Made by a program: the position numbers and the translations under genes
In this document: positions 8,183-26,805 of the stretch, piece by piece
How the letters are laid out: every line of letters starts with the position of its first letter
Numbering within the stretch: position 1 is the stretch's first letter
NCBI GenBank assembly: GCA_903820035.1
Contig: CAIJFT010000455.1
Coordinates: 1-33,342 of the forward strand
Length of the DNA: 33,342 bases
Reading direction: 5' to 3'
Source of the DNA: an uncultured Opitutia bacterium
GTDB lineage: Bacteria; Verrucomicrobiota; Verrucomicrobiia; Opitutales; Opitutaceae
Notes under the pieces: model-generated
Databases searched by the model: none
What the model saw: only the letters and a program-made list of their open reading frames with translations
Told to the model about the DNA's origin: nothing

Positions 8183-10801
8183 CTAGGCCAAACTTCCGAT
8201 CTGCCGGACGGTTTCGAACTTCACCACCGCGCGGTTCGCCGCGCGCGATTCGGCAAGCGATACCGTGAAGGTCGCTTCCCAGTCGTTCTGTTCGGTCGCG
8301 TCGATCAACACCTGCGCCACCTTCCACTCCTGCGTGTCCGCGTGCTCGCTCCAGTGGGTGTGCTTCGCCGAGCGCCCCTCGGGATCAAGGCGGAACCGAA
8401 CGTGGAGGTCGAAGTAGGCGCGAAAGGCATTTTCGATCCGGCGCGCCTCGGGGGTGGCCGGCGCGCCCTCGACGGCTCCCACCGCCTCCCCCGTGGCGAG
8501 GCGCGACGTGGCGCTTTCCCAGTCGCGGGCGGCGACATCCTGCAGGAACGCGAAAAGTGCGGTGCGCACGAGCCGGCGGAACGCGGCGTCGTCCCGCGTG
8601 ATGTCGAAGGTCGCCGGGCGCGCCGGCTTGCCGTCGGTCGCATCCTTCGAGACGAAATCCGGGTTTTTCAAACGCTCCCATTCCTCGAGGAGACTCGAGT
8701 CGATGCCCCGGATCAGTTCGCGGAAATAATCCTCCATCTCGACGACGCCCTCGGTCTTGGCGGCGGACGGGACGGTTTGTGCGAGCACCTTCCAAACCTG
8801 GGAGAGGTGGCGCAGCAAAAGTCCTTCGGAACGTTGCAGGCCGTAGTCGCGGATGTAATCGGCGAACGACATGTAGCGCTCGAACATCTCGCGCGCGATC
8901 GATTTGGGCCGGACGTTTTCCTGCCCGACCCACGGATGCGCCGCGGCGAAGGTATTGAACGTATCGTAGAGGAATTCGCGCAACGGCTTCGGGTGCTCGA
9001 TCTGGTCGAGCTTCTCCATGCGCTCGGCGTATTCGACACCGGCGGCGCGCATCTCCGCCATTTTATCCGTTTTCAGTTTGTCGACCTGCCGTCGCAGAAT
9101 CGCGTCGGGATCTTCGACGATCGCCTCGCACAGGGTGAGCACGTCGAACGGATAATCGGGCGACTCGCGGTTCAGCTGCGGCAGCGTGTCGATGAGGTAA
9201 AGCGAGAGGGCCTGGTGCAGTGAAAAGTCGTCCTGCAGCTCGAGGTTGACCCGCACCTTGCGGGCGGGCGTGGCCGGGGTCGGAGTAGCGGAGGCGCGCG
9301 GTTGGAGCTCCACGATCTTCCGGTCCACGAGGGCGCGGAACAGCTGCCAACCGCGCTTGCGCAGCGCGCGCTTTTTGTGGTCGGTCTCGTGCGAGTCGGC
9401 GATGATCTGACGCATCGCGCGGCAGCCGTCGCCGTCGCGGCTGAGCACGAGCAGCAGCATGCCGTGGGAAATATCGAAACGTGAAACGAGTTCCTCGGGC
9501 GGCGCGGTCCGCAGGCGCTCAAAGGTCTTGGTATCCCAGACAACGGTACCTTCGGGTGCGCTTTGCTTCACGAGCTTCTTCTTGCGCGACGGATCGCCCG
9601 CGGCCTTTTCCTCGGCGCGCTTGTTCTCGATGATGTGCTCGGGGGCCTGGATGATGACGTAGCCCTTGTCGTCGTAACCCTTGCGGCCCGCGCGGCCGGA
9701 GATCTGCCGGAAGTCGCGCACGCTCAGGATCGCGGCCTTCTTGCCGTCGAACTTCCACAGCTGGGTGAACATCACGGTGCGGATCGGAACGTTGATGCCG
9801 ACACCGAGGGTGTCGGTGCCGCAGATGAGTTTGAGCAGACCTTTCTGCGCAAGCTGCTCGACGAGGATCCGGTACTTCGGCAGCAGGCCGGCATGGTGGA
9901 CCCCGATCCCGTGCCGGAGCCAGCGCCGCATCTCCTTGCCGTAGGGACTTGTGAAGCGGAAGCGTTCGAGCTCCGCCTGCAGCGCGGCCTTTTCCTCCTT
10001 CGTGCAGATGTTGAGGCTCATCAACGCCTGCGCGGCGTCGGCGGCGGAGCGCTGGGTGAAGTAAACCAGATAAACCGGCGCGCGTTTGAGGGAAAGCAGC
10101 GCGGCGACGCGTTCGGTGAGCGGGACTTCGGAGTATTCGAATTCCAGCGGCACGGGGCGGCGATCGCTGCGCACCGTGACGCTCGGTGCGCCGGTCAGCC
10201 GCGTCATTTCCTTTTCGAAGAACTCCGTGCGGCCGAGGGTGGCCGACATCAGGAGGAACCGCGCGCCGGGCATCGTGAGGAGCGGCACCTGCCAGGCGTA
10301 ACCGCGCTCCGCGTCGGAATAGTAATGAAACTCGTCCATGATCACCACGCGGACGTCGCTTTCCGCGCCGCGGTGGAGGGCGATGTTGGCGAGGATCTCG
10401 GCGGTGCAACAGAGCACGAGCGCCTGCGGGTTCACGCTGGCGTCGCCGGTCATCATGCCGACGTTTTCGGGACCGAAGTCGCGGCAGAGCGAAAGGAATT
10501 TTTCGTTCACCAGCGCCTTGATCGGACAGGTGTAGACGGAGCGTTCACCGGCGCAGAGGGCCTTGAAGTGAAATGCCGCGGCGACCAACGATTTGCCGGA
10601 ACCGGTCGGGGTATTGAGGACGACGTTACTCCCGCCGAAGAGTTCAAGAATCGCCTCCTCCTGCTCGGCGTAGAGCGAGAGACCACGGCTCGCGATCGCG
10701 GCGAGGAAGCGTTCGAGCACCGCGTCGGCATCGGGGGCCCCGCCATCGGCCGCGCGGAAAGGTGCGAGCGGCGCGGTGGTAGACGACGAGGGAGAGGTCA
10801 T
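8183..10801 (-). CDS. Superfamily 2 DEAD/DEAH-box helicase, Ski2/Mtr4-like, DUF3516 type
   Basis: A predicted ATP-dependent RNA (or DNA) helicase of 872 residues. Helicase motifs are intact and in order: Walker A TPTGSGKS (64-71), motif II DEFH (156-159), motif III SAT (186-188), and in the second RecA domain [12 protein letters not shown] (near 300), [10 protein letters not shown] (328-337) and motif [12 protein letters not shown] (366-375). DEFH and the HHAG pattern place it near Ski2/Mtr4/Hel308. The long C-terminal half (about 400-872), helical and rich in charged residues, fits the DUF3516 region found in related bacterial helicases; I cannot confirm the domain without a search. The role is unknown, plausibly RNA turnover. 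It stands alone on its strand, with a 193-base gap to the upstream DUF3300 gene. Confidence 0.85.
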
Positions 10802-10994: not shown

Positions 10995-12422
10995 CTAATT
11001 CTCGCGCCGGTCGCGGCTGCGACCGTTGTCATTGCGGGCCGGGGGCGGTGTGGTCGTGGAATTCGTGGTCGCCGGGGCGGGCTCGCTGACGGCCGGTTTG
11101 GCGGGTGCCGGCGCGGGGGCGCGCGAGCCGACCTGGGTCGGCGGCGGCGTTGGGTTGGCCCGCGGGGAACGGTTCGTGGTCGACGTCGGCGGTGGCGCCG
11201 GAGCGGTCACGTTGGTCGGTGGATTCGCCGGACTCGTGGCGTTCGAGCCTCCGCGTTCGCCGCGATCGGACCGTTCGGTCCGCGGGTTGCGGATGCGGGT
11301 TGCGGGCAAGGCTGTTTGGTCGGTGGTCGAGTTGGGCGTCGGCGACGGGCTGACGTCGCGCTGGTTCGAAGCAGGAGGTGTCGCGACCCGAGCCGAGGGT
11401 AAGAACGGTGCGTTGTTGCCGGGCAACGGACGAATCCCCGTCGGGACTCCGCGGCTCGTGGATGTGGTCCCTTGTGCCGCAGAGACGGCTGGAGCGGTCG
11501 CGGGAGCCGGGGCGTAGTTGCGTTGGCCTGCGCTGAAGGCGGCGTTGGCGTTGCCGGGGTGGCCGCCGTTCGGACCGAGCGGCAGCGGACGAATCACTTC
11601 GATAGCCGCCGGACGCGACGAATAGGTCACGCGCGGGGTCGGCCGCCACGGGCGCGGCGCATAGGGGCGAGCCGGACCGTTGACGACGGCGACCGGCGCG
11701 ACCACCAGCGGACGGCGCCAATCGTGTTCGGTCCAAGGCCGGTGACGATCACCGACCCAAATGGTGTGCCGGCGCCAGTCGCAGTCGAACGCGAGCCAAG
11801 AGCCGACGGCGACGCCGAGGCTGAATCCGATGTAGGGGCGGGCGTTCCAACTCGAGGGAGGGAGCAAGAGGATGTCCGGTTCGTAGTACGGCACATAGAT
11901 CACATTCGGCTGCGCGGGGACGATGCGCACGACGTCGGCCTCGGCGATCACGGTTTGTTGCGGAGTGTCGGTCAGTACGCCGTTGGCGCGGGCTTGGGTG
12001 CGGAGGCGTTGCACCGCCTGCATGACTTCGGCGGGTTGGGCGGCAAAGGCCTCGCCGAGTTGCTTGGTCCAATCGAGATTTTCATCCATCCAGCCCAATA
12101 CCTCGGGGTACGCCGTGAGCGATTTGACGCTTTCGTCCCAGCCGCGGTGTTCGACCTGCGAGCGGTCGTTGGGTTGCTCGCGCAATTGGCGCGCGGCGAG
12201 CACGATGTCGGTCGGGGCCGTCGCCGCGGGAAACATGATGGCCAGTAAGGCGTCGGGGTAGAGCGCGACGGGTGCGACCAGTTGTTCAAGTTGGGCGGTG
12301 GAGCGCACGGTGGCGGTGACCGGCGCGGCGGGCGGGGCGGCGTAAACCGGCACGGGATCCTGGGCCCAAGCGGTGATGCCGACGAGAACGGGGCAGGCGA
12401 GCAGGGCGCGAAGGGTTTTCAT
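10995..12422 (-). CDS. Exported DUF3300 protein with a low-complexity tail
   Basis: The 475-residue protein starts with a Sec signal peptide (positive Lys-Thr-Leu-Arg start, hydrophobic core, likely cleavage after Ala-Trp-Ala at 18-20). Residues about 42-230 match the DUF3300 pattern: QLEQLVAPVALYPDALLA, LDWTKQLGEAF and IVPAQPNVIYVPYYEP. The region near 220 is rich in Trp, His and Arg. From about 270 to the end it is a disordered Pro/Thr/Ser/Ala/Asn-rich tail with Arg-Pro repeats, ending in a basic stretch. DUF3300 proteins are secreted or envelope proteins of unknown function, so no enzymatic role can be given. Its neighbours do not suggest one. Confidence 0.8.
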   Translation of the reverse strand: MKTLRALLACPVLVGITAWAQDPVPVYAAPPAAPVTATVRSTAQLEQLVAPVALYPDALLAIMFPAATAPTDIVLAARQLREQPNDRSQVEHRGWDESVKSLTAYPEVLGWMDENLDWTKQLGEAFAAQPAEVMQAVQRLRTQARANGVLTDTPQQTVIAEADVVRIVPAQPNVIYVPYYEPDILLLPPSSWNARPYIGFSLGVAVGSWLAFDCDWRRHTIWVGDRHRPWTEHDWRRPLVVAPVAVVNGPARPYAPRPWRPTPRVTYSSRPAAIEVIRPLPLGPNGGHPGNANAAFSAGQRNYAPAPATAPAVSAAQGTTSTSRGVPTGIRPLPGNNAPFLPSARVATPPASNQRDVSPSPTPNSTTDQTALPATRIRNPRTERSDRGERGGSNATSPANPPTNVTAPAPPPTSTTNRSPRANPTPPPTQVGSRAPAPAPAKPAVSEPAPATTNSTTTPPPARNDNGRSRDRREN

Positions 12423-12698
12423 GGAAGGGAGGGTTCAGCCGATCAGACGTCCCCGTGGACACGGATATTCACTTTTGTGCCGATCGCACGCGGGAAGTGG
12501 TCGGCGCGACGAACGAGGCGAAGGACGCAACTAATTCTCCTGTCGACTCGGCCGGTGCCGGGCTCGCGGGAACGAAATTCCGACGCCCACGCCCGCCCAC
12601 CGCGCGGGCCTGCAATCGAGGAATGGGTAGCCCTGCGCGGTGGTGCAGGGATTCGATCGGATGGCGAAAGGCACGGATCCCGCGACTCACGCCGCGGG

Positions 12699-13970
12699 CT
12701 ACGGCACCAGCGGCGCCAAGGCCATCTCGACCGCGGCGTTGTTTGCCCCGGGGGCCGTGCGGAGCTGCTGGAGCGCGGCGGTTAGGCGTGCTTGTTGCGC
12801 GGGATCGGAAAGGGCGGGCCAGGTGGCGGCGAGCGCGCGCAGGAGTTGCAGGGTGAGCGCATCGAGGCGCGGGCGGATCACCGTCGCCAGGTCAGGCACG
12901 TCGGTAAACTTGCCCTGACCGCTCGCCTCCCATCGGGCGAAGAGATCGCGCTGGATCACCTTGGCCGCCTCGATTTGGGCGCGGAAGAAACGCTCGGCCC
13001 AAGGCGCGGGAATACCCACGGCTTCCGCGTCGCGTTGCAGGCCGGCGATGATCTGGCGTTCGCGCGCGAGGTCCTCGATGGGGCTGCGGGTGTTCCACTT
13101 GTGGCGTGCGACGTCGGGCATGAGGGCGAGGCGCTCGGCCAGCAGGTTGCGCAGCGGCGCGAGGTCGATGGTTGCCGCCGAGGCGCGGGGCCAGGGATGG
13201 TCGAGCCACTTCTCGAGCAGCCGTGCGCACTCCGGTCCGGACGTGAGGGGCTGCAGCCAGGCGTCGACCGCGGCCTTGAACGCCTCGTCGCGGGGCAGGA
13301 GGTATGCTTTCTCGGATACGTCGAACGGCGCTTCGGGGTGCACCGCGCAGAGTTGCGGCCGCAGTTTCTGCTGGAGCCGGGTTTCGACCGCGTCGGTGAT
13401 CATGACGTCGGCCCGGCCCGCGACGATCTCGTCGAAGATGGCGGCGTTGTCCGGAAAGACCGTGATCGCGGCCTGCTGCAGGCGGGCGCGGGCGAAGCGC
13501 TCGTTGGTACCGCCCGGGTTGACGATGACGCGCACGCCGGGTTGGTCGATCTGCGCGAGGGTTTGGAAACGGGCGGCGTCGACGCAGCGGGCGATGGGCG
13601 TCTTGCCGTCACGCAGGTAGGGGACGGAGAAGAAGGCGGACTTGCCGCGCTCGGCGGTGATCGACACGCCGCCCATCGCGACGTCGAAGCGTCCGGCGGA
13701 GAAGTCATCCATCAACGTCGGCCACGTGGTTGGCACGAGTTCGAGCCGCACGCCCAGGGCGGTGGCGAGCCGGCCGGCAAGCTCGATGTCGAGGCCGATG
13801 TACGGACTCCCGGAGTTCGCGCGGTAACTGAACGGCTTGTAATCGCCCGTGGTGCCGACCCGCAGGACGCCGCGTTGCCGGACGTCCGCCAGCGGGGCCG
13901 CGGTGAGGCAGTGCGGCAGCGCGAGGCAGACCGCGAGGCAGGCGAGGACGAGGCGGCGAAGGATGGTCAT
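12699..13970 (-). CDS. Exported cyclohexadienyl dehydratase-chorismate mutase fusion
   Basis: The 423-residue protein has a signal peptide (1 to about 24, Arg-Arg then a hydrophobic core, Ala-Ala-Pro near the cut). Residues 25 to about 260 form a periplasmic binding-protein fold of the PheC type: VLRVGTTGDYKPFSYR near 35-50, DIELAGRLATALG, and FDVAMGGVSIT at 95-105. Cyclohexadienyl dehydratases turn prephenate to phenylpyruvate or arogenate to phenylalanine. Residues about 265-405 match the secreted AroQ-gamma chorismate mutase: Arg280 in LLAERLALM, Lys291 in ARHKWN, Asp300 and Arg303 in SPIEDLARE, and FFRAQIEAAKVIQ at 328-340. Together the two could convert chorismate to the aromatic product outside the cytoplasm. 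There is no Shine-Dalgarno sequence. Alternative for the N-terminal half: a plain amino-acid-binding protein. Confidence 0.85.
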   Translation of the reverse strand: MTILRRLVLACLAVCLALPHCLTAAPLADVRQRGVLRVGTTGDYKPFSYRANSGSPYIGLDIELAGRLATALGVRLELVPTTWPTLMDDFSAGRFDVAMGGVSITAERGKSAFFSVPYLRDGKTPIARCVDAARFQTLAQIDQPGVRVIVNPGGTNERFARARLQQAAITVFPDNAAIFDEIVAGRADVMITDAVETRLQQKLRPQLCAVHPEAPFDVSEKAYLLPRDEAFKAAVDAWLQPLTSGPECARLLEKWLDHPWPRASAATIDLAPLRNLLAERLALMPDVARHKWNTRSPIEDLARERQIIAGLQRDAEAVGIPAPWAERFFRAQIEAAKVIQRDLFARWEASGQGKFTDVPDLATVIRPRLDALTLQLLRALAATWPALSDPAQQARLTAALQQLRTAPGANNAAVEMALAPLVP

Positions 13971-14032: not shown

Positions 14033-14059
14033 AAAAGCCCTGCGCGTGCGCGCAGGGCT
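14033..14059 (-). terminator. Minus-strand terminator after the NIPSNAP gene
   Basis: AGCCCTGCGCG (14036-14046) and CGCGCAGGGCT (14049-14059) form a perfect 11-bp palindrome. On the minus strand it is followed by four T residues (14033-14036) and lies 41 bases beyond the NIPSNAP stop codon. The T run is short, but the stem is very stable. Confidence 0.65.
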
Positions 14060-14099
14060 ACATTTCGGAACGCTCAACCTTCAACTGCCGGTTACGGAT

Positions 14100-14942
14100 T
14101 TACAGCTGCGAATAGGCCGTCGGCACCACGAAGCGCGCGGTGTTCTTCGACGTGTTGTTCGCGTACTGCGGGTCGTCCTTCAACTTGTTCCAGCGCGGAT
14201 CGGGTCCGAACTTCTTCCAGTTGTTGAGGTGGGACGCGAGGTCCGGTCCGCCGGTGAGGTAACGTAGGTGAGGCAGGTTCGGGCCGGACAGGGCTTGGCC
14301 GAAAAACACCGGTGACATCCCGAGGTCCTTCATGACCTCGATCTCGCCGTTGTTGAACATCGCCATCTTGCTGAGGGCCGCGCGCTCGCTGTGGCTCTCG
14401 TAGTCGCGCATCTCGAAGATGCGGGTTGCTACTTTCGATTTGGAAAACGCGGGCACCTGCATCTGGGTCATGCCGGCGAAGGCGCGCAGCAACCAGCTGT
14501 CGACGCGGTCAAAGGCGGGACTCGCCTTCGGCACCTCGAGGTAGGCCGCGCCGGCCTTTTGCACCGCGGGGTCCTGGTTGATCTCGGCGCTCACGCTGAC
14601 GAAGGACTCGAGCGATCCGTAGGGAATGAACACCCAGACCGCGGTGTCGGCCTTCGGGGTTGAGGTGAGGGCCTTCTTGTCGACGTCGACCTCGGTGAAA
14701 ACGCCGACATTTTTGATGCCGCGCTGGTTCAGGACCGGGATTAACGCCTTTTCGAGGTAGGCGTCCAACGGTGCCCGCGAACCGCCGGCTTTCAGGCGGT
14801 AGGCGCGCAACTCGTAGTAATCACGCGCGGCGCCCGGCGCGGGAGCGGCGGAGGCGGAGGCGGCGGTGAGCGCCGCGGAGGCCGAGGCGACGAGGGAGGT
14901 TTTTAGGAACGTGCGGCGGTTGGATGTCATGGTGGTGCTCAT
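14100..14942 (-). CDS. Tat-exported NIPSNAP-family protein
   Basis: A 280-residue protein with a twin-arginine signal (SNRRTFLKTSLVASASAAL, residues 8-26) followed by an Ala-rich region and cleavage near Ala-Ser-Ala-Ala. Two ferredoxin-like NIPSNAP repeats follow: the first opens with DYYELRAYRLKAGG (near 40), the second with IFEMRDYESHSERAA (near 158) and includes VFFGQALSGPNLPHLRYL. NIPSNAP proteins are dimeric alpha-beta-barrel folds; in bacteria they often lie beside sugar-acid or aromatic catabolism genes, but activity is rarely known. The ATG at 14942 is preceded by AGGA with workable spacing; upstream in-frame codons look non-coding. It is transcribed divergently from the glucarate-type cluster, which suggests shared control. 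Confidence 0.85.
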   Translation of the reverse strand: MSTTMTSNRRTFLKTSLVASASAALTAASASAAPAPGAARDYYELRAYRLKAGGSRAPLDAYLEKALIPVLNQRGIKNVGVFTEVDVDKKALTSTPKADTAVWVFIPYGSLESFVSVSAEINQDPAVQKAGAAYLEVPKASPAFDRVDSWLLRAFAGMTQMQVPAFSKSKVATRIFEMRDYESHSERAALSKMAMFNNGEIEVMKDLGMSPVFFGQALSGPNLPHLRYLTGGPDLASHLNNWKKFGPDPRWNKLKDDPQYANNTSKNTARFVVPTAYSQL

Positions 14943-15163: not shown

Positions 15164-16039
15164 ATGTCCGCTTCCCTCTCGATCGCATTCATCGGCACCG
15201 GCGTGATGGGCCGCAGCATGGCGGGCCATCTCCAAAAAGCCGGCCATACGCTGCACGTGCACAACCGCACCAAGGAGAAGGCTCAGGTGCTCCTCGACGC
15301 CGGTGCCTCGTGGCACGACTCGGCCGGCGCGGCCGCGGCGCAGGCCGATGTGGTGATCACGATGCTCGGCTTTCCGACCGATGTCGAAACGAGCTACCTC
15401 GGTGCCGGCGGGATTGTTGCACGGGCCAAACCCGGCGCCCTGCTGATCGACATGACGACCTCGAGCCCGGTGCTCGCCCGCCAAATCGCCGATGCCGCCA
15501 CCCAGCGCGGGCTCGCGTCGCTCGACGCCCCGGTTTCCGGCGGTGACCTCGGGGCCAAGGAAGCCCGGCTCGTGATCATGGTCGGAGGTGACGCCGCCGC
15601 GTTTGCCCGCGCCAAGCCGCTCTTCGAGATTATGGGCAAGAACATCGCCCTGCACGGCGCGCCCGGCGCCGGCCAGTATTGCAAGATGGCGAACCAGATC
15701 GCGGTCGCCGTCGGCATGGTCGCGTGGGTTGAGGCGCTCGCTTACGCCAAGAAGGCCGGCCTCGATCCGACCGCGGTCCACGGCAGCATCAGCGGCGGGG
15801 CCGCCGGCGGGTGGGCGATGACGAACCTCGCGCCCCGCGCGCTCGGGGACAATTTCGCCCCCGGCTTTTACGTGAAGCACATTATCAAGGACATGAAGAT
15901 CGCGCTCGAGAGCGCCGCCGAGTTGAAGGTCGACCTGCCCGGCCTCGCGACCGCGAAGAAGCTCTACGAACAGGTCGCCGCCCGCGGCTGGGAAGATTGC
16001 GGCACCCAGGCGCTCTATCGGCTGTATACGTCGCTCTGA
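15164..16039 (+). CDS. NAD(P)-dependent beta-hydroxyacid dehydrogenase, tartronate semialdehyde reductase-like
   Basis: A 291-residue member of the 3-hydroxyisobutyrate/2-hydroxy-3-oxopropionate reductase family. It has the Rossmann motif GTGVMG (11-16), the NRT motif after the second strand (34-36, usually NADPH-preferring), the substrate motif DAPVSGGDLGAKE (121-133) and the catalytic Lys174 in GAGQYCKMANQ. In the glucarate and galactarate pathway the equivalent enzyme (GarR) reduces tartronate semialdehyde to glycerate. The next two genes code for a GarL-like aldolase and a GudD-like dehydratase, which makes that role the best guess. The ATG at 15164 yields the family N-terminus; no Shine-Dalgarno sequence is visible. 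Alternatives: 3-hydroxyisobutyrate dehydrogenase or a glyoxylate or succinic semialdehyde reductase. Confidence 0.85.
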   Translation: MSASLSIAFIGTGVMGRSMAGHLQKAGHTLHVHNRTKEKAQVLLDAGASWHDSAGAAAAQADVVITMLGFPTDVETSYLGAGGIVARAKPGALLIDMTTSSPVLARQIADAATQRGLASLDAPVSGGDLGAKEARLVIMVGGDAAAFARAKPLFEIMGKNIALHGAPGAGQYCKMANQIAVAVGMVAWVEALAYAKKAGLDPTAVHGSISGGAAGGWAMTNLAPRALGDNFAPGFYVKHIIKDMKIALESAAELKVDLPGLATAKKLYEQVAARGWEDCGTQALYRLYTSL

Positions 16040-24834: not shown

Positions 24835-26805
24835 ATGAATTCATCCCCTTACCTCTGGCGTCCGGAGGACCACGCGTGGACCGGAGAATCGCACGTTGCG
24901 CGTTTCATGCGCTCTCGTGGAATCGGGACCCTCGCGGAACTGCGGCGGGCGTCGGTGCAATCGCCCGGCTGGTTTTGGGACGAGGCGATGCGGGATATGG
25001 GGCTGGAGTGGACGAAGCCCTACACGCAGGTGCGTGACGATACCCGGGGGCTGCCGTGGACGCGTTGGTTTATCGACGGCCAGATCAACGTGACGCACAA
25101 CTGCGTGGACCGGCACGTGAACGACGGGCACGGGCAGGATACGGCGTTATTTTGCGAGGCAGAGTCCAACCCGACGGGCGAGGCGCGGCGCGTGAGCTAC
25201 GCCGAGCTGGCCGAACGCGTGAACAGCTGCGCCGCGGCGCTGCGCGCGGCGGGGGTGCGGCGGGGCGACAGCGTCGGCCTGTACGCGCCGATGCAATTGC
25301 CGACCGTGGTCGTGATGTTTGCCACGATGAAGCTCGGCGCGCGTTTCGTGCCGATCTTCTGCGGCTACGGCGAGGAGGCCTTGCGCGAGCGACTGGCCCT
25401 GTGCGAGGCGAAGGTGCTGTTCGCGTGCGGGACGATGGTCCGCCGGGGCCGGGCGATCGACACCGGGGCGATCGCGCGCGCCGCGGCGGCGAAGGTGCCT
25501 TCGCTCACGCGGGTGGTGTGGACCGACACTTCGGACTGGACGTCGTTTCTCCACGACGGGTTGCGGCGGGTGGCGCGGCGGCCGGCGGAGAGCGCGGGTG
25601 AGCGGGCGTCGGTGGCGTGCGAGCCGACGGAGGCTGAGGAGCCCTGCTTGATCATCTACACCAGTGGCACCACCGGCCGGCCGAAGGGCACCGTGCACAC
25701 GCACGCGGGCTGCCTCGCGCAGATGGGCAAGGAACTCCGCTATGCGTTCGACGTACGGCCGGGCGAACCGTTCTTCTGGTTCACGGACATCGGTTGGATG
25801 ATGGGGCCGTGGGAATTGATCGGCTGTCTGCTCTATCGGACCCCGGTCGTGCTGTACGACGGCGCGCCGAATTTTCCGACGAGCGATCGCCTGTGGGAAA
25901 TCTGCGCGCGGCTCGGGGTGGTCACGCTCGGCTGTTCGCCGACGCTGATCCGCCTGATGCTCCGGGCGACCGACGGCGAGGGGCCGGGCGCGTACGACCT
26001 GGCCAAGTTGCGCGTGCTCGGCTCGACCGGGGAGGTCTGGGACGAGACGAGTTACCGCTGGTACGCGGCGAAGGTCGGCGGCGGCCGTTGTCCGGTGATC
26101 AACATTTCCGGCGGCACGGAGATTGTCGGTTGCCACGTGCAGCCGTATCCGATCGAGCCCCTCAAGCCGTGCACCGTCGGCGGGCCGGCGCTCGGGATGG
26201 ATGTGGATGTGTTCACCGACGAGGGGACGCCGGCGCCCCGCGGGACGATGGGGCACCTCGTGTGCAAGCAGCCGGCGCCGTCGATGACCAAGGGTTTTTT
26301 GCACGACGACGCCCGGTACCTGGAAACGTACTTCAGTCGTTTTCCCGGGGTGTGGTACCACGGGGACTGGGCGAAGGTGGATGAGGACGGCCAGTGGTTT
26401 CTTTACGGTCGCACCGATGACACGATGAAAGTGGCCGGCAAGCGCGTCGGTCCGGGCGAGGTGGAGGACGCGCTGACGTCGCATCCCGCAGTCGGCGAAG
26501 CGGCGGTCATCGGCGTGCCTGACGACGTGAAGGGCACGGCGCTGGTGTGTTTTGTGGTGCTCAAGTCCACCGCGGCGGTGCCGTTGGAGCGCGAGTTGAT
26601 CGGTCACGTCGCCCAGCAGCTCGGGAAACCGCTGGCGCCGCGCCACGTGCATGCGGTGCCGGCGATCCCGAAGACCCGCAGCGGCAAGATGGTGCGCGCC
26701 GCCATCCTGCGGGCCTACCTCGGTCAGCCGGCGGGTGATTTGACCAGCGTGGAAAATCCGCAGGCGTTCGAGGCGATCACGGCGGCAGCCGCGGCGACAT
26801 CATGA
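24835..26805 (+). CDS. AMP-forming acyl-CoA synthetase (acetyl-CoA synthetase-like)
   Basis: An ANL-superfamily ligase of 656 residues that activates a carboxylic acid as acyl-AMP and then acyl-CoA. It has the N-terminal acetyl-CoA synthetase-type region, the P-loop IYTSGTTGRPKG (274-285), SGGTE (425-429), YHGDW (508-512), the hinge motif GRTDDTMKVAGKRVGPGEV (525-543) and the catalytic Lys618 in PKTRSGKMVR. At the position where acetate-specific enzymes carry the pocket tryptophan of WQTE, this protein has Gly426, which should leave room for acyl groups larger than acetate. The substrate is thus probably a short or branched acid. Its stop codon overlaps the next start (ATGA). Confidence 0.9.
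   Translation: MNSSPYLWRPEDHAWTGESHVARFMRSRGIGTLAELRRASVQSPGWFWDEAMRDMGLEWTKPYTQVRDDTRGLPWTRWFIDGQINVTHNCVDRHVNDGHGQDTALFCEAESNPTGEARRVSYAELAERVNSCAAALRAAGVRRGDSVGLYAPMQLPTVVVMFATMKLGARFVPIFCGYGEEALRERLALCEAKVLFACGTMVRRGRAIDTGAIARAAAAKVPSLTRVVWTDTSDWTSFLHDGLRRVARRPAESAGERASVACEPTEAEEPCLIIYTSGTTGRPKGTVHTHAGCLAQMGKELRYAFDVRPGEPFFWFTDIGWMMGPWELIGCLLYRTPVVLYDGAPNFPTSDRLWEICARLGVVTLGCSPTLIRLMLRATDGEGPGAYDLAKLRVLGSTGEVWDETSYRWYAAKVGGGRCPVINISGGTEIVGCHVQPYPIEPLKPCTVGGPALGMDVDVFTDEGTPAPRGTMGHLVCKQPAPSMTKGFLHDDARYLETYFSRFPGVWYHGDWAKVDEDGQWFLYGRTDDTMKVAGKRVGPGEVEDALTSHPAVGEAAVIGVPDDVKGTALVCFVVLKSTAAVPLERELIGHVAQQLGKPLAPRHVHAVPAIPKTRSGKMVRAAILRAYLGQPAGDLTSVENPQAFEAITAAAAATS

Follow-up and report, generated by a model that had tools for sequence, protein, structure and literature searches.

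Bifunctional proteins that join a cyclohexadienyl dehydratase (CDT) to a chorismate mutase (CM) have been described from Proteobacteria in two domain orders. The closest published account (PMC10520331) covers nine proteobacterial species and finds the CDT-CM order only in beta-Proteobacteria and the CM-CDT order only in gamma-Proteobacteria. From this clean split, a lack of gene transfer between the classes was inferred there, and transfer of fusions between beta- and gamma-Proteobacteria was argued against. CM and CDT activities were published for JbCDTCM of Janthinobacterium sp. HH01 and DsCDTCM of Duganella sacchari, together with a crystal structure of JbCDTCM (PMC10520331). The same account lists active-site residues, nine for CDT and ten for CM, defines a WLXXXW linker whose fourth position is Phe or Tyr, and reports that Lys287 of JbCDTCM is essential for CM activity. 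No verrucomicrobial CDT/CM fusion was reported among the matches listed in searches of the open-licence literature for chorismate mutase and cyclohexadienyl dehydratase, and the string 'Verrucomicrob' is absent from the text of PMC10520331.

Here we describe a CDT-CM fusion gene from an uncultured Opitutia bacterium of the family Opitutaceae, phylum Verrucomicrobiota. The window, meaning the whole stretch of DNA analysed, is 33,342 nucleotides long and corresponds to contig C455 of a 6.05 Mb genome; Rfam and tRNA scans of it returned nothing. The product of the gene is very probably exported and bifunctional, of the same type as JbCDTCM; the gene would have arrived laterally as a ready fusion, and its product would not serve as the housekeeping route to phenylalanine. 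The enzyme type is already known from Proteobacteria. What is new is its presence in another phylum, its occurrence as a single inserted gene and the finding of both domain orders within one genus.

The fusion gene occupies positions 12699–13970 on the minus strand, starts with an ATG at 13970 and encodes 423 amino acids followed by a stop, with matches in Pfam, NCBIfam and the PDB. Its single frame runs from a signal-peptide-like N-terminus (residues ~1–24, 13899–13970; assigned by eye, with low AF2 confidence) through a PheC-type CDT domain (residues ~25–257, 13200–13898) and a linker of sequence WLDHPW (residues 255–260, 13191–13208), which fits the WLXXXW pattern of CDT-CM enzymes (PMC10520331), to an AroQ-gamma CM domain (residues ~262–405, 12756–13187). 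Pfam places SBP_bac_3 at residues 36–257 (E 4.3e-25) and CM_2 at residues 266–340 (E 5.9e-10), while the gamma-class CM family TIGR01806 of NCBIfam covers residues 269–380, scoring 91.8 bits where 74.15 is the cut-off. The best PDB matches are 8cq4 (JbCDTCM; E 6.9e-146, residues 8–421) and 8cq6 (DsCDTCM), and the prephenate dehydratase domain PF00800 was absent in a Pfam search with E values up to 1. An earlier note on this DNA had given the same coordinates, leaving the strand unnamed, and had read the frame as a PheC-like domain followed by a secreted-type CM at residues 265–405; it had also supposed a verrucomicrobial host and named proteobacteria as the main source of the fusions characterised so far. 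The coordinates, the two domains and their order, the CM match, the host assignment and the proteobacterial precedent (PMC10520331) are all borne out.

Structure prediction, which the same note had proposed as a check, leads to the same assignment, as both predicted domains match solved structures. The AF2 model of the whole protein, built with 32 homologues, has a mean pLDDT of 92.9 and a pTM of 0.85, and its top Foldseek match is 8cq4 (E 5.0e-46). Comparison of the full model with 8cq4 gives a Z of 36.0 with an rmsd of 14.8 over 388 residues (VIA); each domain fits on its own, and we read the large rmsd as a predicted domain orientation unlike that in the crystal. The CDT domain aligns with 5hpq, the monofunctional PheC of Pseudomonas aeruginosa, which lacks a CM domain, with a Z of 33.7 and an rmsd of 2.0 over 238 residues (VIA) at 59% identity. 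Modeled alone, the CM domain reaches a pLDDT of 96.3 and superimposes on 8cq4 with a TM of 0.88 and an rmsd of 2.0. It shares the all-helical CM fold of the monofunctional secreted AroQ-gamma enzymes 6cnz, 5ts9 and 2fp1 (TM 0.83–0.88), which lack a CDT domain.

Alignment of the fusion protein, which has identities of 58% with JbCDTCM and 56% with DsCDTCM, shows that all nine active-site residues of PaCDT are kept (Y44, W83, K123, N151, T155, N156, N175, T192 and E196). Eight of the nine are invariant across 33 CDT-CM proteins and T155 is nearly so. The dehydratase catalytic residues on which the earlier note had made its N-terminal assignment depend are thus present, among them Glu196 (codon at 13383–13385, minus strand), which corresponds to the catalytic Glu173 in PaCDT and to Glu200 in JbCDTCM (PMC10520331). 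The cysteine pair C129 and C208 of the CDT domain is likewise kept and is found in 33/33 CDT-CM sequences. In the CM half, R280, K291, I298, D300, R303 and R366 correspond to R49, K60, I67, D69, R72 and R134 of MtCM. Arg280, Lys291, Asp300 and Arg303 sit exactly where the note had put them, and the codon of Lys291, the counterpart of JbCDTCM Lys287 (PMC10520331), lies at 13098–13100 on the minus strand. MtCM differs in carrying Glu106 and Glu109 at the positions of Lys337 and Gln340, which are the residues of the published fusions. R280, K291, D300, R303, K337, Q340 and R366 are invariant in the 33 CDT-CM sequences, as are W255, L256 and W260 of the linker.

The protein therefore agrees with JbCDTCM (8cq4, 8pnh) and DsCDTCM (8cq6) in domain order, linker, CDT active site, cysteine pair and CM catalytic residues. 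It differs from them in the phylum of its host and in a few details of sequence. Ile307 and Ala336 replace the Val and Ser of the CDT-CM enzymes in PMC10520331, the fourth linker position is His, as in six other homologues, and eight extra residues follow directly past the linker. The Ile307 and Ala336 deviations are judged not to be defining, because Ala336 is common to several other CDT-CM proteins in the alignment of 33. The second group of described fusions, represented by AfCMCDT of Aequoribacter fuscus (8cq3), resembles the protein in having the same two domains and, according to PMC10520331, in being exported and carrying out identical reactions; its domain order is reversed, and CM domains from the one order and the other fail to group as a single clade.

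The gene lies inside a conserved block. Its left neighbor encodes a DUF3300 protein (10995–12422, minus strand), located downstream on the same strand after a gap of 276 bp, and its right neighbor, upstream, encodes a NIPSNAP-domain protein (14100–14936, minus strand). Further out lie a DEAD-box helicase with DUF3516 (8183–10801, minus strand) and a protein with both 3-hydroxyisobutyrate dehydrogenase domains (15170–16039, plus strand), each found in 24/24 other genus members searched (67–88% and 76–92% identity, respectively). Synteny was analysed in 18 stretches from 16 genomes of the genus, 12 of which carry the DUF3300 and NIPSNAP genes on one stretch; among the other four, DUF3300 is absent from one and NIPSNAP from another, and in two DUF3300 was not found in the stretch. 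The two genes are 1677 bp apart in the window, where the interval holds the fusion gene, as opposed to about 107–420 bp in 11 of the 12 relatives (ten gaps of 107–244 bp and an eleventh, in G018, of ~420 bp extrapolated from a partial match). None of the 18 stretches contains a match to the fusion protein. The fusion gene is thus a single-gene insertion in a conserved intergenic site, and because that site is short in relatives we take its arrival there to have been lateral and as a ready fusion. In the twelfth relative (G004), some 3.8 kb of different DNA lies at this site, so it may take up foreign genes more than once.

Codon use does not set the gene apart. Its codon-use distance to the other genes is 5.15, within their range of 3.08–6.77, so nothing marks the arrival as recent or the gene as foreign, although no other gene among the 21 measured has a GC3 as high as its 0.882. 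A terminator-like hairpin of 10 pairs, 8 of them G-C, separates the NIPSNAP gene from the fusion gene (14036–14059, minus strand), with the caveat that the scanned region of 3.1 kb holds three sites of this kind and 2.7 are expected by shuffling. The gene is also flanked by an inverted 13-base pair, GTAGCCCTGCGCG, with its left member at 12627–12639 (plus strand) and its right member, which overlaps the hairpin, at 14049–14061 (minus strand). This sequence occurs three times in 354 kb sampled from the host genome (loci L259 and L280), two of the copies forming another inverted pair about 300 bp apart. It resembles a rare dispersed repeat, perhaps REP-like or the end of a mobile element, and the repeats around the fusion gene could be a trace of the way in which such genes move. 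No direct repeat longer than 11 bases borders the insert.

By homology and conserved residues, the C-terminal CM would convert chorismate to prephenate and the N-terminal CDT would convert prephenate to phenylpyruvate in a separate active site outside the cytoplasm. Formation of phenylpyruvate there is predicted from the similarity to measured enzymes, and formation of phenylalanine would require an exported aminotransferase as well. The host also encodes a cytoplasmic-type PheA (CM plus prephenate dehydratase), contigs C182 and C333 both carrying this sequence at their ends, and for this reason the exported fusion is probably not the housekeeping phenylalanine route. As its most likely role, we tentatively propose salvage: chorismate and prephenate that leak from the cell or from lysed neighbors, or are otherwise present in the environment, would be captured and turned into stable phenylpyruvate, which could then be taken up.

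Genomic context says little about the role, as no widely recurring neighbor family was found. Up to four genes per side were surveyed at 29 of 33 CDT-CM loci (the locus in the window and three others were dropped, the fusion having been missed by the simple gene caller), and no family was present in more than five of the 29, so that an operon or pathway partner was rejected as a candidate. The DUF3300 and NIPSNAP proteins and the sugar-acid-type enzymes encoded nearby in the window were also considered as partners and suggest no link.

Two other roles have been proposed for related enzymes. Phenylalanine synthesis by a periplasmic 'hidden overflow' route, as put forward for P. aeruginosa (PMC10520331), would suit two consecutive enzymes that are, by homology, both exported. 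We regard it as possible, if rather doubtful, given that neither flanking gene encodes an aminotransferase, that the host has the PheA-type gene and that the published enzymes are not feedback-inhibited by phenylalanine (PMC10520331). Participation in a chorismate-sensing or signalling system, in which the CDT domain, derived from a solute-binding protein, would report phenylpyruvate or prephenate to a membrane partner, was proposed in PMC10520331, where the low Km for chorismate (<7 uM) speaks for it, as do genes for transporters or binding proteins in the vicinity of some fusions. At this locus we consider sensing unlikely: the flanking DUF3300 and NIPSNAP genes are no known transporter or receptor genes, the other 29 CDT-CM loci share no common neighbor, and the gene is a single insert, separated by the hairpin from the gene upstream. 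That the CDT half is simply a solute-binding protein, as its Pfam label SBP_bac_3 might imply, and the CM half a relic is highly improbable in view of the complete CDT active site with Glu196, the CM catalytic residues invariant in 33 homologues and the closest solved relatives, which are active enzymes (PMC10520331). A beta-proteobacterial contaminant in the metagenome bin, for which one could point to the 469 contigs, the 4.43% contamination and the beta-proteobacteria among the closest homologues, can be dismissed as extremely improbable, because the genes on either side occur in 24/24 other genus members searched, the block order recurs in relatives and codon use stays within the contig range.

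The distribution of both fusion orders was surveyed in several genome sets. In the family Opitutaceae (252 genomes, at the limits used), CDT-CM fusions are found in two genomes, that of the window and G013, and CM-CDT fusions in 13: nine belong to the window's genus, one of them (G014) with its fusion split over two contigs, and four to one further genus. Both orders are thus present within one genus. Within this family, the search for verrucomicrobial homologues of the same order, also suggested in the note, yielded a single further CDT-CM, G013, in the window's own genus. In an even sample of the phylum (387 genomes), 25 had a match, the fusions being those of the window genome and of G113, a CM-CDT genome of the second genus; a CM domain in frame was found in none of 13 checked among the 23 other matching genomes. 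The order of Pseudomonas massiliensis, which we take to be GTDB Pseudomonadales, has CM-CDT in 11/244 genomes, and that of a Sterolibacterium genome, presumably GTDB Burkholderiales, has CDT-CM in 3/250 genomes, centre genome included. Among 394 genomes of the order of Aeromonas, 40 had a match (E ≤ 1e-25), none in an open frame longer than 342 aa, and the fusion was not seen. A scan of loci with known source organism (80 kept of 306) gave 32 CDT-CM, of which 31 are proteobacterial and the remaining one belongs to Opitutaceae, and a single CM-CDT, L116, from Gammaproteobacteria. Taken together, the family, order and locus scans show that the fusions are commoner than the nine species of PMC10520331. 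Matches occurred in 1424 plasmid records, but in no case did they cover 80% of the query in one place.

In six CM-CDT genomes of the window's genus, the neighboring proteins are 92–98% identical and the fusion proteins 80–84%, so that these genomes inherit CM-CDT at one site. In G013, the DUF3300-NIPSNAP site is empty and the CDT-CM gene lies on another contig. Its protein is only 68% identical to that of the window, as against 84% for the helicase and 91% for the dehydrogenase, which suggests separate arrivals or fast change.

Trees were built for each domain and for full-length CDT-CM proteins. The CM tree has 85 rows and just 134 columns and includes 33 of 42 single CM frames (the rest were short or below 45 bits); the CDT tree has 87 rows, with 34 of 91 single CDT frames. 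Long branches are common among the fusion rows. Two truncated sequences and six near copies were left out of both trees, and L204 (truncated) and L180 additionally out of the CM tree. On the CM tree, the 30 CDT-CM rows fall together (93/74), and within these the sequences from the window and G013 group with CDT-CM rows from Undibacterium and Rhodocyclales (99/92). Eleven Opitutaceae CM-CDT rows group with L199 and L201 (100/99), and the nine remaining non-Opitutaceae CM-CDT rows lie elsewhere, several of them among single CMs. On the CDT tree, all 23 CM-CDT rows, gamma-proteobacterial and Opitutaceae alike, form one group (99/90), and the sequences from the window and G013 are placed beside those of Undibacterium (90/93), in contrast to the ladder position of the window's sequence and L037 in a first, smaller tree. 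Four single PheC proteins (L068, L070, L075 and L079; three betaproteobacterial, L070 from an unclassed proteobacterium) stand among the CDT-CM rows of this tree, which suggests that they lost a CM domain or that CDT halves were exchanged.

As regards their CM halves, a single origin of all fusions, of either order, was rejected (AU p 0.0035), and the absence of one clade agrees with the independent fusions described in PMC10520331. CM-CDT as one clade on the CM tree was not rejected (p 0.164), though the free tree scatters these rows; for the CDT tree, a single CDT-CM clade was rejected (p 6.4e-6; p 0.0018 without the five L063–L069 rows). In the full-length CDT-CM tree of 35 rows, both Opitutaceae sequences are placed at the base of the beta-proteobacterial set, where the branching order is not settled; in the best tree a branch (22/0) has all 27 remaining ingroup rows on one side. 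The data neither show nor reject the two Opitutaceae sequences as sisters (p 0.378), and pairing of the window's sequence alone with Rhodocyclales rows has a p of 0.041. With such a basal placement, the donor and direction of transfer can only be inferred. We infer that the window's gene would have come from a proteobacterial donor as a ready-made unit and entered the short intergenic site; transfer in the opposite direction, out of Opitutaceae, is a possible reading that is compatible with the full-length tree.

These results oppose a class-restricted occurrence of the fusion orders, as both are found outside Proteobacteria and in one genus, and the presence of one of them as an insert at a conserved site alters the published account. 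It is conceivable, and we suggest it with reserve, that both orders travel between phyla as stand-alone genes and that one verrucomicrobial genus took up both, CDT-CM at least two times and at different sites. If so, the processing of chorismate outside the cell would have been selected repeatedly, and the division of the orders between proteobacterial classes in PMC10520331 would be an effect of sampling. Close relatives with and without a fusion are natural pairs in which the role of exported chorismate enzymes could be tested.

Some minor observations concern other loci. At L193 and L195, both from the order of Pseudomonas massiliensis, a CM frame is followed on the same strand by a CDT frame of its own, 23 and 36 bases away, which is either an unfused stage or a split CM-CDT. 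Both cysteines of the CDT disulfide pair are lost in 6 of the 7 Opitutaceae CM-CDT proteins examined, out of 13, and L006 keeps both. Finally, genome G106 carries at positions 25145–25387 of contig C307 a CDT-domain piece with one in-frame stop and 47% identity over residues 172–253, which is possibly a decayed copy.
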